Shown: positions 10 through 5,424 of the stretch, in pieces
Layout of the letters: every line of letters begins with the position of its first letter
Position numbering within the stretch: position 1 is the stretch's first letter
Origin: Erysipelotrichaceae bacterium
GTDB lineage: Bacteria > Bacillota_I > Bacilli_A > Erysipelotrichales > Erysipelotrichaceae
Length of the DNA stretch: 42,159 bases
Direction of reading: 5' to 3'
Assembly: GCA_030528645.1 (NCBI GenBank)
Contig: JAUMYM010000012.1
Span: 1 to 42,159 of the forward strand
Notes under the pieces: model-generated
Seen by the model: the letters and a program-made list of their open reading frames with translations, nothing else
Databases searched by the model: none
What the model was told of the DNA's origin: nothing
Program-made: the position numbers and the translations under genes

Positions 10-37
10 AAAGATATCTTTTGATATCTTTTTTATT
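10..37 (+). terminator. Rho-independent terminator of an upstream gene
   Basis: A 9-bp perfect stem (10-18 with 23-31) with a TTTT loop runs into a T tract. It probably ends a gene lying to the left of the window. Confidence 0.7.
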
Positions 38-42
38 TTATG

Positions 43-51
43 TGGTATAAT
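43..51 (+). promoter_or_regulatory. Extended -10 promoter for the Spx-like operon
   Basis: TATAAT at 46-51 is preceded by TGG (43-45), an extended -10. The best -35-like hexamer, TTGATA at 21-26, has a long 19-base spacer and overlaps the preceding terminator, so the extended -10 probably carries most of the strength. Confidence 0.5.
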
Positions 52-77: not shown

Positions 78-422
78 ATGTTATTTCTATGTTATTCAAA
101 ATGTTCTACTTGTAAAAAAGCACAGAACCATCTTGATGAAAAAAAGCTAAAGTACACACTAAGAGATATAAAAGAACATAATCCTAGCAAAGAAGAACTA
201 AGGGAATGGATTTTGAAAAGTGGCTTGGCAATTGATAAGTTTTTTAATACATCAGGTTTAAAGTATAAAGAATTAAACTTATCTCAAAGAAAAAAAGATA
301 TGTCTTTTGATGAAAAACTTGAACTATTATCACAAGATGGCATGTTAGTAAAACGCCCAATACTTGTAAAAGGTAATAAAGTACTTATTGGCTATAAACA
401 AGAGGAATATCAAGCACTATAA
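78..422 (+). CDS. Spx/ArsC-family thioredoxin-fold protein
   Basis: This 114-residue protein belongs to the ArsC/Spx/YffB family of small cytoplasmic proteins with a thioredoxin-like fold. A CSTC (CxxC) redox pair sits at residues 9-12, just after the first beta strand, and an 'LVKRPILV' segment near residues 91-98 matches the conserved Arg-Pro region of the family. It is shorter than typical Spx (about 131 residues), so either an RNA-polymerase-binding redox regulator or an arsenate-reductase-like enzyme is possible; sequence alone does not decide. An AAGGAGG-type ribosome site (around 64-70) supports the start. It overlaps the next gene by one base and appears to lead a three-gene operon. 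Confidence 0.8.
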   Translation: MLFLCYSKCSTCKKAQNHLDEKKLKYTLRDIKEHNPSKEELREWILKSGLAIDKFFNTSGLKYKELNLSQRKKDMSFDEKLELLSQDGMLVKRPILVKGNKVLIGYKQEEYQAL

Positions 423-1006
423 TGACATCACTGAAAGAATATGCCAAAACACATCAAGTACCAATCATTCAAGAGGAAGGCTTAGTATTTTTATTAAAGA
501 CAATTCAAGAACATCATTGTAAACACATCTTAGAATTAGGTAGTGCCATAGGATACTCAGCTATACAAATGGCAAAACTCGATAAAGATATTAAGATTGT
601 TACAATTGAGAAAAAGGAAGAACTTTATCATCAAGCAAAAAAGAACATTACACAGGAACATCTACAAGATCAAATAACGATTCATAATAGAAATATTGAT
701 GATTTTGAAACAGATGAACTATTTGATTTTATATTTGTAGATGCAGCCAAAGCACAATATGGAAAATATCTTGAGAAATTTAAAAAGAACTTAACACAAG
801 GTGGAATCTTCTTCTTTGATAACTTAGCATTTCATGGATTGGTTAAACATCCAGAATTGTGTAAGAGTCGAAATACCAGACAGCTTGTCAAGAAAATTAA
901 GAAGTTTGTAGAAGAAACATTGGAACATCCAAATTATAGTTGTAACTATTATCCAGATATTGGAGATGGTATAATGATATTGAAAATAAAGGAGAACACA
1001 TTATGA
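422..1006 (+). CDS. trmR: SAM-dependent O-methyltransferase, TrmR/YrrM-like
   Basis: A 194-residue class I methyltransferase of the bacterial YrrM/TrmR (COMT-like) family. The SAM-binding motif I is 'LELGSAIGYSA', an acidic residue follows in 'IVTIEKKEE', the metal/catalytic region is 'DFIFVDAAKAQYGKYL', and 'FFDNLAFHG' matches the family's conserved 'DN' strand. TrmR in Bacillus subtilis methylates 5-hydroxyuridine in the tRNA wobble position, and that role is inferred here from similarity only. Length is slightly short for the family (about 210-220). The gene overlaps its downstream neighbour by four bases (ATGA), so the two are translationally coupled. Confidence 0.8.
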   Translation: MTSLKEYAKTHQVPIIQEEGLVFLLKTIQEHHCKHILELGSAIGYSAIQMAKLDKDIKIVTIEKKEELYHQAKKNITQEHLQDQITIHNRNIDDFETDELFDFIFVDAAKAQYGKYLEKFKKNLTQGGIFFFDNLAFHGLVKHPELCKSRNTRQLVKKIKKFVEETLEHPNYSCNYYPDIGDGIMILKIKENTL

Positions 1007-1761
1007 AATTTAAAACATTAGTTGGTTTAGCAGCCATCGCATCTGCAGCAGTTTACTTAGTAAAGAAGTTTGTTAAAGTGGAAGTAGAAGTAAAAGAAGA
1101 CGGCGAAGAAAAAATCCTTCACACGATTGAAGAAACACAAGAAGACGAAGAAGCACAACAGTGTACGTTGCATGAGGAAAGTTGTGGCTGTAGCCTTGTA
1201 GATCAAAGTGAAGAGACATGTGGATGTCACCATGAAGAAGAAACATGCGGTTGTCATCACGAAGAAGAAACATGTGAATGTCACCATGAAGAAGAAGCTC
1301 CTCATGAATGTTGTGATGGAAATGATGAAGCATGTCAATGCAGTTGTCATTATGAAGAACAACCATCTTTTGCTAAACCGGAAGTAAAAGAGGAACCTGT
1401 TTTTCATCAAAATGAAGCTTATCAGTTTGAACATCATGAAACCTATACAAATTTAGATGAAAATTTTAAGTCTTTGATTTTAAATCAAAAAGAAGCCTAT
1501 AATCATGAATATCCAATTGGCAGTCATATCAATGTATATCACCATATGAAGTTTGAAAATACAAATGATTTATATCACTTTGTAGAAGATGCCAAAGGAG
1601 ATGGGTATAGTTGTGATGTGGATGAATATAACCTGACTGTAAAAGTTACAAAAGGTTTATATGTCAATGAAGGTACAATTATTCATAACATTTTAGATGT
1701 TGCGAATCACACAAAAATCTTGCATGGAGAATACTTAGGTTATTCGTTAGAGTTAATTTAA
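1003..1761 (+). CDS. Membrane-anchored Cys/His-repeat protein of unknown function
   Basis: I do not recognise this 252-residue protein. Residues 5-20 form a short hydrophobic N-terminal segment followed by Lys residues, suggesting a membrane anchor. A very acidic stretch follows (28-52). Residues 54-115 hold 14 cysteines and many histidines, including three tandem nine-residue units of the form T-C-x-C-H-H-E-E-E (72-98) and a C-x-C-x-C-H cluster (111-116). From about residue 145 there is a globular-looking, His/Tyr-rich C-terminal domain. The pattern suggests binding of a soft or transition metal, but no known metallothionein or chaperone signature is complete. It overlaps the methyltransferase gene by four bases and ends the operon at a strong terminator. 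Confidence 0.7.
   Translation: MKFKTLVGLAAIASAAVYLVKKFVKVEVEVKEDGEEKILHTIEETQEDEEAQQCTLHEESCGCSLVDQSEETCGCHHEEETCGCHHEEETCECHHEEEAPHECCDGNDEACQCSCHYEEQPSFAKPEVKEEPVFHQNEAYQFEHHETYTNLDENFKSLILNQKEAYNHEYPIGSHINVYHHMKFENTNDLYHFVEDAKGDGYSCDVDEYNLTVKVTKGLYVNEGTIIHNILDVANHTKILHGEYLGYSLELI
1216..1296 (+). repeat. Three tandem 27-bp coding repeats
   Basis: Units at 1216-1242, 1243-1269 and 1270-1296 each encode T-C-[GE]-C-H-H-E-E-E. They differ at a few bases, mostly synonymous (CAC CAT versus CAT CAC, TGT versus TGC). This suggests protein-level conservation after duplication rather than very recent expansion. Confidence 0.9.
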
Positions 1762-1790
1762 AATATCAGTAAAATTACTGATATTTTTTT
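1761..1790 (+). terminator. Rho-independent terminator
   Basis: A 12-bp perfect inverted repeat (1761-1772 with 1775-1786) is followed by a T run. It begins within the stop codon of the Cys/His-repeat gene and ends the first operon. Confidence 0.85.
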
Positions 1791-1842: not shown

Positions 1843-4800
1843 ATGAATATAAGAAAGATTCTATTAGTAGTATTAGCTAGTATTTTTTTATTTGGTGCTA
1901 GTATAAAAAGTAATGAGTTAAAAGCCTTTAATAATCAAACCATTACTGGTAATGTTGCTCCTGAGGGGAAAGTGTATATTTATTTTGAAGGGCAAGGAAT
2001 TACCAAAGAAAAACAAATCATTTTAGATGAAATTAATAGGATAAGACAAGAAGCTTTTCATGAAGGTTTAGTGAAAGAATATGTAGAAATTAAATGGTCA
2101 AAAGAATTAGAGAAGATTACTGAGATTCGTGCAGTAGAAGCATCTATTCGTCAAGATCATGCTAGACCAAATGGAAGTGATATTCCTTTTGGAGTTACTT
2201 CAAACGGGGTAAGTAGTTACGGTGAAAACTTAGCTTGGAACTTTGAAAGTGATGCCAATACCATCATGAAGTCTATTCAACAGTTTTATGATGAAAAAGC
2301 GGATTATTTACTAAAGTTAAAAGGACAACCACATGATCAAACAGGTCACTATGAGGCACTGATTAATCCTGATTATAACTATACAGCTTTATCTGCGTAT
2401 AAAATTAATGGAGCACGTTATTCTACAACGGCGCAAGCATTTTCTCCATTGCAAGGATTTGATGAAACACAAATTGGTGTTACACAACCAAGTCATGGTG
2501 TGATTGAAGTTATTGATGAAAACATTAACTATGAAGTGGTTGGTGGTAGTCAAGTAGTTGCAGGAGAAAGCATTACATTAGATTTAATGGCTCGTTTTAA
2601 TACATGGAATCGTTTCCCTGCCGGCTTTGATCATTTCATTATTCCTTTAGAAGGAAAAGTAAGAAGTGCCACATGGTCAAGTAGTGCAAATGCGATTGCT
2701 ACAGTGGACAATGGTGTTGTTACTGGGCATGGAAATGGGCAAGTAACGATTTCAGCAGTAGTAAATGGTAAAACATTTACAAAGGTGATTGATGTTGTAG
2801 GGGTTACATCGGTTGAAAACGTACCGATGGTTACAACCGAATCAGGAACCTATCCAAACTTACCACAAACTGTGAAGGCTACATGGTCAAACCAAAGTCA
2901 AACGGATGAACAAGTTCATTGGGATGCAGTAAGTGAAGATGATTATACATCGATGGTAGAAAAAACGATTACTGTAACAGGTCGTATTGATAAGTACGAC
3001 CAACCAATACAAGTACAAGTACTAATAAAGGCGCCAAGAGTTACTAAGGCATTGGATGCTGCACGTGTTGAAACAGAATTTAGAGTAAAACCAGTTCTTC
3101 CAACAACAACAGAAGTGGTATGGAGTAATGGACGTAAAACAGTAGAACAAGTTGTGTGGTCAGAAATGAATCCACAAGATTATAATCAAACACCTAATCG
3201 TACTTTTAAAGTGTCAGGTACTGTGTTAGGACAAACGGTTTTTGTTGAAGTTTTTGTAAGAGAAGCCGTAGCGAATATTGCCACTTTAAATGATATTCGT
3301 GTTCCATCAGGTACAACTCCAACACTTCCAGCTACTGTAGAGGTACGTTGGTCAAACAATCAAGTGACACAAGAAACAATCACTTGGAATCCATTAAATG
3401 ATGCTGATTTTTCAAGTATTCAAGGTGGTAAAGTTACTGTTACAGGAACGGTTTTAAGTCAACCAATTTCTGTAAATGTAATTGTTGAACCAGCAACCAT
3501 TTTAAATATTAATTATGAAAAAACAGTAACGGTAGATTCTGGTACCTATCCAGTTTTACCAAAAGTAGCAAGTGTAGAATATTCAAATAGAGAAGTTGTA
3601 GAAAAAACAATCACATGGAATCAAGTTCCGGAAAATGTGTATAAAAGTCGTAGTGCTACAAGTGCGACTGTTACAGGAAGTATTGATGGAATTTCTACCG
3701 CTGCAGAAGTAACGGTTCATGTAGTAGCTGCAGTAATCAAAGAAGTTCGTTTAAATCCAACCGAAGTTGTAACAGCGTATAAACAACAACCAGTTTTACC
3801 GGTTAACGCTACTGTTGTTTACAGCAATGGGGATGAAGTAGAAGAGCCTATTCAATGGGATGCTATTGATTCAGCTTTATTACAACATCGTCAAGGGCAT
3901 CGTTTTGAACTATATGGAACAGTTTTAGGGCGTAGAGTAACTTTACAAGTTGTTGTAAATCCTGATCAAATTACAGCAATTGCTCCATTTGCAGATATTA
4001 CCGTAGAATCAGGTGTTAAACCTGTATTACCAAAGAAAGCACAAATTACTTGGGCTGCAGGTGATGTTACAGAGGCAGATGTAACTTGGAATGATGTGCC
4101 GGAAGAATTCTATCTTGCAAAAGAAGGACGTACTTTTGTTGTTGAAGGTCGTGTTGCAAATCAACAAGTATCTGTGAAAGTGATTGTAAAACCAGCTACA
4201 ATTGTACAGGTTGAAGCTCTTGCGATGGTGGTAACTCCTTCAGGGACAAAACCGGTATTACCAAAAACAGCGAAAGTTCTTTGGTCAAATGCCGAAGTAG
4301 TTGATGAAGTAATTACTTGGAATGATATTCCCGAGTCTTTATATAAAAATCGTGCCGGTGGACACTTTGAGGCTGTAGGGCGTGTTTTGGGTAATAACGA
4401 AATAAAAGTACAAGTTCAAGTAACTCCGGCGGTGGTTGAACAGATTGAACATGTAGAAGAGATTCGTGTTGCAAATGGTATCAAACCAACATTACCAACG
4501 AATGCACAAGTACGTTGGTCAAATCAAGAAAGTGAAACACATACCATCACATGGCAAGATGTACCGGAAGCTATTTATAAAAATCGTAAAGGTGCTTCAA
4601 CCATTGTCAATGGTCGTATTGATGCATTAAATGTGAATACGGCAATCAAGGTAATTGTTGAACCTGCAAGCTTTACAGTAGGAAATGTAGATGTAACGGT
4701 ATTACATGGACTGCCTGTTCACTTACCAACTACAGTTGAAATTACATGGTCAAACAATGATAAAGAAACATTAGCTATCACAGTAGAAGAAATTAAAAGT

Positions 4801-5424
4801 AATGTATATCCATTAGATCAAGCAACATCGTTTACATTAATGGCTACGATTACAGAATTAAATCATCAATTTCCAATTCGTGTCCATGTAAAACCATTAA
4901 AATCAGACTCACATAAAATCAATGTAAAAGTATTAAATGGAAATGCTGATGTATCATCAACATTAGTTGTTAAGAAGATAGAAGAAAAACTAGGTACATC
5001 AACATTAGAAAACAGTGATTTATATGACATTGTTGTTGCAGATCAAAATGGGAATAGTGTTAATTTTGTAGGGAATGCTGAAGTATATTTGCCAATTGAA
5101 GCAGGACGTGTGGTAGAGAAGGCTTATTATGTGGATGATGCAAATAATACACAAGAAGTTCCATATGTAATAGTAGGTAATTTTGCAAAATTAAGTGTTA
5201 CTCACTTTAGTAAGTATGGAATTACATATAAACCAAAGGTAGTAAATCCTAATTTAAATAAACCTTCTATTACAGTACAACCAAATACGCCAGAGTCAAA
5301 ACCATTTATTAAACCAAACGTTGTTAAAACACAAGATTCAACAAGTATAGGCTTCTATGTTATGGTATTGTCAATGAGTGTAGCTTGTCTATTTGTAGTG
5401 AAGAAACAAAAAGAATCTCATTAA
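1843..5424 (+). CDS. Large secreted surface protein: CAP domain plus nine Ig-like repeats
   Basis: This 1193-residue protein begins with a signal peptide (Lys/Arg then a hydrophobic core, residues 1-22). Residues about 57-200 form a CAP/SCP-PR1-type domain with the expected 'DHARPNG', 'GENLAW' (E128) and 'TGHYEALINP' (H169) segments. A Big_2-like domain follows (about 272-318), then nine Ig-like (Big_4-type) repeats of about 77 residues (322-1018), each with a '[VK]P.LP' strand and a WSN/YSN turn. After a further domain (1022-1128) comes a Pro/Asn-rich linker. The tail is V-K-T-Q-D (1161-1165), a hydrophobic stretch (1167-1186) and KKQK. This resembles a sortase signal of the VKTGD type but lacks LPXTG. 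It is a single-gene unit between two terminators; its ligand is unknown and adhesion or wall association is inferred. The start has a GGAGAT-type ribosome site. Confidence 0.85.
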   Translation: MNIRKILLVVLASIFLFGASIKSNELKAFNNQTITGNVAPEGKVYIYFEGQGITKEKQIILDEINRIRQEAFHEGLVKEYVEIKWSKELEKITEIRAVEASIRQDHARPNGSDIPFGVTSNGVSSYGENLAWNFESDANTIMKSIQQFYDEKADYLLKLKGQPHDQTGHYEALINPDYNYTALSAYKINGARYSTTAQAFSPLQGFDETQIGVTQPSHGVIEVIDENINYEVVGGSQVVAGESITLDLMARFNTWNRFPAGFDHFIIPLEGKVRSATWSSSANAIATVDNGVVTGHGNGQVTISAVVNGKTFTKVIDVVGVTSVENVPMVTTESGTYPNLPQTVKATWSNQSQTDEQVHWDAVSEDDYTSMVEKTITVTGRIDKYDQPIQVQVLIKAPRVTKALDAARVETEFRVKPVLPTTTEVVWSNGRKTVEQVVWSEMNPQDYNQTPNRTFKVSGTVLGQTVFVEVFVREAVANIATLNDIRVPSGTTPTLPATVEVRWSNNQVTQETITWNPLNDADFSSIQGGKVTVTGTVLSQPISVNVIVEPATILNINYEKTVTVDSGTYPVLPKVASVEYSNREVVEKTITWNQVPENVYKSRSATSATVTGSIDGISTAAEVTVHVVAAVIKEVRLNPTEVVTAYKQQPVLPVNATVVYSNGDEVEEPIQWDAIDSALLQHRQGHRFELYGTVLGRRVTLQVVVNPDQITAIAPFADITVESGVKPVLPKKAQITWAAGDVTEADVTWNDVPEEFYLAKEGRTFVVEGRVANQQVSVKVIVKPATIVQVEALAMVVTPSGTKPVLPKTAKVLWSNAEVVDEVITWNDIPESLYKNRAGGHFEAVGRVLGNNEIKVQVQVTPAVVEQIEHVEEIRVANGIKPTLPTNAQVRWSNQESETHTITWQDVPEAIYKNRKGASTIVNGRIDALNVNTAIKVIVEPASFTVGNVDVTVLHGLPVHLPTTVEITWSNNDKETLAITVEEIKSNVYPLDQATSFTLMATITELNHQFPIRVHVKPLKSDSHKINVKVLNGNADVSSTLVVKKIEEKLGTSTLENSDLYDIVVADQNGNSVNFVGNAEVYLPIEAGRVVEKAYYVDDANNTQEVPYVIVGNFAKLSVTHFSKYGITYKPKVVNPNLNKPSITVQPNTPESKPFIKPNVVKTQDSTSIGFYVMVLSMSVACLFVVKKQKESH
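2806..4896 (+). repeat. Nine Ig-like repeats within the surface protein
   Basis: The WSN-type turn recurs at residues about 349, 428, 504, 581, 661, 738, 814, 893 and 970, spaced 76-80 residues apart. The repeats are diverged at both DNA and protein level. The sixth has WAAG instead of WSN, and the ninth has lost the Trp of the later 'ITW' strand. Confidence 0.85.

Follow-up and report, generated by a model that had tools for sequence, protein, structure and literature searches.

The question raised by this locus is what kind of protein carries 14 cysteines in a short acidic segment, and what the segment could be for. The gene lies in the window, meaning the whole 42,159-nucleotide stretch of Erysipelotrichaceae DNA that was analysed. 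The features of the gene and its surroundings are as follows.

10..51, + strand: perfect 9-base inverted repeat with a 4-base loop (10-31) and an extended -10 like TGGTATAAT (43-51), before the operon; read directly from the sequence.
78..422, + strand: ArsC/Spx-type (TIGR01617) protein, probably in the same operon, a genus-specific neighbour.
422..1006, + strand: TrmR/YrrM-like O-methyltransferase, whose stop overlaps the start of the window gene (ATGA, 1003-1006).
1003..1761, + strand: the window gene, an ORF with an ATG start encoding 252 aa (anchor, Cys-rich acidic linker and RraB-like domain).
1003..1065, + strand: N-terminal hydrophobic anchor, residues 1-21, KTLVGLAAIASAAVYLV followed by KKFVK; judged from charge, the topology is probably N-out/C-in.
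1162..1350, + strand: Cys/His/acid-rich linker segment, residues 54-116, with 14 Cys.
1216..1296, + strand: three tandem 27-base units, TC[G/E]CHHEEE, missing in the sister species.
1309..1350, + strand: CCDGxDExCQCxCH core, residues 103-116, the sole Cys block kept in the sister species.
1435..1758, + strand: C-terminal RraB-like domain of ferredoxin type, residues ~145-252, from alignment and model.
1762..1790, + strand: AT-rich hairpin (11-base arms) and T run behind the gene, probably its terminator; read directly from the sequence.

The layout given in the initial annotation was confirmed. The hydrophobic anchor occupies approximately residues 4-20, a separate C-terminal domain was recovered by both alignment and modelling, and the linker cysteines (54, 61, 63, 73, 75, 82, 84, 91, 93, 103, 104, 111, 113 and 115) amount to the reported 14 within the 62 residues 54-115, with one additional Cys, C204, inside the domain. 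Against a background of 0.87% Cys in the 19 ORFs of the window, this density has a binomial probability of about 3e-16 per placement. The three near-identical nine-residue units were also found as described, with TCGCHHEEE at 1216-1242 and 1243-1269 and TCECHHEEE at 1270-1296. When CxCHHEEE was back-translated and searched for in the 1.38 Mb genome of the bacterium itself (1,379,491 bases), all three matches were in the window gene, and the reversed-pattern control gave 0 matches in the same genome. In the full-length model of the protein, residues 1-144 have a pLDDT below 50, leaving the model uninformative on the linker.

It had further been claimed that the differences between the repeats are mostly synonymous and that this implies selection on the protein. 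The count itself stood, with four synonymous differences and one non-synonymous difference from unit 1. Random single changes in a unit are synonymous in 13 out of 81 cases, which gives P = 0.003 for at least four synonymous changes out of five, and if transitions alone are considered (9 out of 27 synonymous) P is 0.045. Selection on the protein is therefore suggested by the sequence, with just five changes as its basis.

The initial annotation had judged the protein unlike the families known to it, and this reading as an orphan family was rejected, as the C-terminal domain is RraB-like by Foldseek, by VIA-align and by orthologues that pass the Pfam threshold. The domain model (AlphaFold, seven sequences) is ferredoxin-like with a pLDDT of 92.4, and its top PDB match in Foldseek was 1nxi (VC0424, E = 1.4e-3), which we take to be a YjgD/RraB protein. 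The model has the alpha/beta ferredoxin-like fold of VC0424; VIA-align gave Z = 9.9 over 110 aligned residues with a large rmsd of 5.4 Å, and the next rows were designed ferredoxin folds with Z of 8.6 and below. By sequence, the window domain alone had no match to RraB structures in the PDB, and the best profile matches obtained there (E = 0.0015-0.0023) were to de novo designed proteins and were taken as chance. Against Pfam RraB (PF06877) the window protein scored 16.2-17.3 bits, under the cut-off of 23.3, while the family was matched by 8 out of 10 aligned members (with E up to 1), and of 309 genomes from the order 41 have a match above the cut-off. One of the orthologues, L069 from genome G165, reached 35.7 bits against the cut-off of 23.3; it is located between methyltransferase and EcfA1 genes, and this ORF is the same as the match to our family profile. 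Because a same-locus orthologue that matches the family profile passes the cut-off, the window protein is, judged from alignment and modelling, a diverged relative of the Pfam RraB proteins, though itself below the cut-off. A phage origin was also considered and rejected: tblastn against phage records gave no match, and the matches in PHROGs were weak and nearly all without function.

Proteins of this kind occur throughout the window's bacterial family and hardly outside it. Profile A1 matched in 192 of 315 genomes and profile A5 in 191 of 309, with one match per listed genome in both cases, and in a class-wide draw of 395 genomes there were 25 matches, 24 of them in the window's own family and a weak one outside it (5.7e-4). 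In the order, 195 genomes yielded the architecture of anchor, acidic linker and domain, as a rule in a single copy, with the hydrophobic segment recognised in 148 of the 195 members, a set in which 13 frames are open at the 5' end. Their acidic linkers (D+E 33%, Cys 0.17%) vary in length between nil and several hundred residues. L087 (genome G277) and L127 (genome G273) have long E/P-rich repeats in the linker, so that the same domain sits on a tether of quite another kind. At L084:2761-4323 (- strand, genome G137) the open frame of the RraB-like gene also takes in an upstream gene, which by its sequence looks like an aspartate-semialdehyde dehydrogenase. Judged by the search listings, the literature on RraB together with RNase Y apparently held no paper about such proteins, the term 'ribonuclease E inhibitor RraB' returned nothing but an unrelated genome announcement, and Erysipelotrich with cysteine-rich and metallothionein returned only unrelated work. 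In the accessible parts of the Bulleidia extructa genome paper (PMC12786226), RraB, metal, zinc and cysteine-rich were not found.

Linker cysteines were absent from 149 of the 195 members; 34 members have one, five have two, one has three, one has four, two have six, and the highest counts, 13, 14 and 15, are found in one member each. Two apparent cases were set aside, as the 11 Cys of G137 came from its in-frame upstream gene and were excluded from the linker counts, and the 6 Cys of G273, spread over 401-402 residues and never forming a CxC, were not treated as an array. At least three CxC were present in four members: the window genome G000 (14 Cys), its sister species G001 (6), G025 (15) and G286 (13). 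The linker of G025 (L098:2746-3426, + strand) has CCC, CSC, CGC, CTC and CAC, among others, and that of G286 (L110:1498-2151, - strand) has three CCC[H/Q] blocks, so both differ in detail from the window's array. In the genus of G286, whose genome is incomplete (79%), linker Cys are absent from G283 and G285 and number two in G282, so the gain of the array there looks recent; the copy in G284, of the same genus, is broken off by a contig end. The sister species shares 90% identity with the window protein in the domain, yet its linker has no CxCHHEEE unit and its 6 Cys are in a CxCC...CQCxCHH block. The dN between the two species is 0.35 in residues 51-125, compared with 0.05 for the N-terminus and likewise for the domain. 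As the Cys vary so strongly between two sister species, the array is not tightly constrained, and the number of repeats, for which a comparison among strains had been proposed and two species were compared here, is not conserved. The retention of Cys by the repeats in relatives, on which the initial annotation had staked its reading, did not hold up: the sister species lacks the units, and with 149 members free of linker Cys, the cysteines are not needed for the core function of the family.

On the domain tree, which comprises 109 domains and 105 columns, leaves out 86 later-added members and places G000 and G001 on a long branch, the arrays need three changes, all three forced by well-supported branches, and one change was sufficient in 0% of 200 bootstrap trees. 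Similar arrays thus appear to have about three separate origins, in three genera, although one gain followed by several losses could still account for the pattern. The array is a late, lineage-specific decoration of a disordered linker on a domain of a known kind.

Such a decoration could have grown out of a low-complexity acidic linker by slippage and drift, neutral or nearly so and having no metal or redox function. The free variation in linker length and composition fits with this, as do the sister species, which lost or never had the units, its linker dN of 0.35, and the three units, which are near-copies in DNA and therefore recently duplicated. However, Cys is otherwise depleted from these linkers, 13-15 of them in CxC or CCC blocks are found in three genera with mixed TGT/TGC codons, for which slippage alone is insufficient, and four out of five unit differences are synonymous. 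We therefore regard a neutral origin as possible but rather unlikely, and prefer a functional array on the tether.

The metal or thiol role proposed in the initial annotation is still the best guess from sequence, and it has gained from the arrays in the two other genera and from a motif in a heavy-metal ATPase. The exact back-translated CxCHHEEE was present in 2 of 315 genomes, the window's own and G092, and the CGCHHEEE site in G092 (L071) is flanked by HMA domains and His-rich stretches in the N-terminus of an E1-E2 heavy-metal ATPase. This N-terminus contains three HMA stretches and near-identical, duplicated His-rich stretches besides the CGCHHEEE. E. coli ZntA needs its N-terminal CCCDGAC motif to bind Pb (PMC10800456). 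Because of these two parallels, a soft-metal site is the leading idea, followed by thiol buffering. The window's own genome has one heavy-metal ATPase above the cut-off, with a CPC motif, and the genes beside the window gene include none recognised as a metal transporter or metal sensor.

For the gene neighbourhood, the initial annotation had coupled the protein to a Spx/ArsC-like protein and a methyltransferase. The former is a feature of the window's genus only, with an ArsC-like gene upstream in 2 of 167 members, whereas the methyltransferase is an older neighbour, being fused or within 300 bases upstream in 79 of the same 167 (members for which 650 or more bases of upstream sequence are present); many members without it are apparently from one genus. 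It matched YrrM 5zw3 (E = 3.5e-29) and the tRNA 5-hydroxyuridine methyltransferase 8k1f (E = 1.2e-18), and in G025 and G286 it is directly upstream of the RraB-like gene. At L064:4860-6209 (- strand, genome G271), methyltransferase and RraB-like part are in one open frame, either a natural fusion or a base error in the assembly. Of 24 members with enough sequence, 15 have an EcfA1-like gene no further than 2.5 kb downstream; in G001 the EcfA1 match is 2.3 kb downstream of the RraB-like gene. Among 20 hand-chosen loci, the methyltransferase was the adjoining gene in 11, and 16 had an EcfA1-like match no more than 2.5 kb downstream, which was weak in one case. In the window, a gene at 1843-5424 (+ strand) encoding a 1193-aa surface-type protein with a CAP domain, nine Big_4 domains and a C-terminal hydrophobic segment sits between the window gene and ecfA1. 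The promoter and terminator scan did not return the element at 10..51, required three G-C pairs and did not list the AT-rich hairpin at 1762..1790; its 14 promoter-like sites compared with 10.3 in shuffles are uninformative.

The orientation of the tether also has to be considered, as the segment could face outside, where it would serve near the cell wall as a surface tether or spacer linked by disulphides. The N-terminal hydrophobic stretch could then be an uncleaved signal anchor, and the CAP/Big_4 protein is the product of the very next gene. This is improbable in our view, as positive residues number 67 after and 24 before the hydrophobic segment (23 members, in stretches of unequal length), the hydrophobic N-terminus is only weak in some orthologues, and the partner gene looks like that of a tRNA methyltransferase and shares an open frame with the RraB-like part in G271. 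A tether facing the cytosol is thus preferred.

RraB represses RNase E by binding to its C-terminal scaffold half, as described in PMC3997798 and PMC10126417. That the window protein is a true RraB, a membrane-tethered inhibitor of an RNase E family ribonuclease, is hardly credible despite the fold and the Pfam relation, as RNase E/G was detected neither in its own genome nor in any of 60 relatives (0 of 60) by a search whose control was positive in 6 of 14 known genomes. RNase Y, which is a membrane-bound enzyme, is present. RNase Y or the TrmR-like neighbour are therefore candidates for the partner of the RraB-like domain. The conservation of the family where RNase E/G was not found raises the question of what role RraB-like domains have without RNase E.

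Taken together, the sequence comparisons and models favour an RraB-like regulator tethered to the membrane and facing the cytosol, with a tether that in a few lineages turned into a soft-metal or thiol site, a reading to which we assign a probability of roughly 0.55. The N-terminal anchor would hold a single-copy protein at the membrane, with the long acidic disordered linker carrying the RraB-like domain; linker and domain would face the cytosol, as indicated by the charge distribution and the fused or adjoining methyltransferase. At the membrane the domain may bind another protein, most plausibly one of RNA metabolism other than RNase E. The linker would have gained Cys/His/Glu arrays in the window's genus and also, apparently by independent events, in two further genera; the most likely role of these arrays is binding of a soft metal (Zn, Cd or Cu) or thiol buffering, giving a metal- or redox-responsive tether. 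A more speculative and rather doubtful extension is that metal on the arrays, which would have at least three origins, changes the reach or occupancy of the tether, so that metal stress could control RNase Y-type RNA decay or tRNA U34 modification by the coupled TrmR-like enzyme at the membrane. Since the tether is otherwise poor in Cys, its apparently convergent Cys/His arrays offer a natural experiment on metal-responsive linkers, between sister species and between genera with and without them.

Compared with known systems, the likeness to the TrmR/YrrM tRNA U34 methyltransferases belongs to the upstream neighbour and not to the Cys-rich protein. With the RraB/YjgD family (PF06877; VC0424, 1nxi) the window protein shares the predicted fold and a sequence relation at the level of the domain, and same-locus orthologues pass the cut-off; it differs in its membrane anchor, long acidic linker, Cys-rich array and score below the cut-off, and in its setting in a genome where RNase E/G was not found. 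Bacterial metallothioneins such as SmtA are short proteins made up of a Cys-rich metal-thiolate domain. The window array resembles them in its dense CxC pairs and His, but it is a disordered linker within a 252-aa membrane protein with an anchor and a folded domain, and the protein had no match to a metallothionein in Pfam or NCBIfam. Closer in composition are the N-termini of Zn/Cd P1B ATPases, as the window linker likewise has CxCHHEEE and a CCDG-type block in an acidic, His-containing region, with its CCDGNDEACQC resembling the CCCDGAC of ZntA. Unlike these ATPases, the window protein has neither an HMA domain nor an ATPase, and its array is joined to an RraB-like domain.
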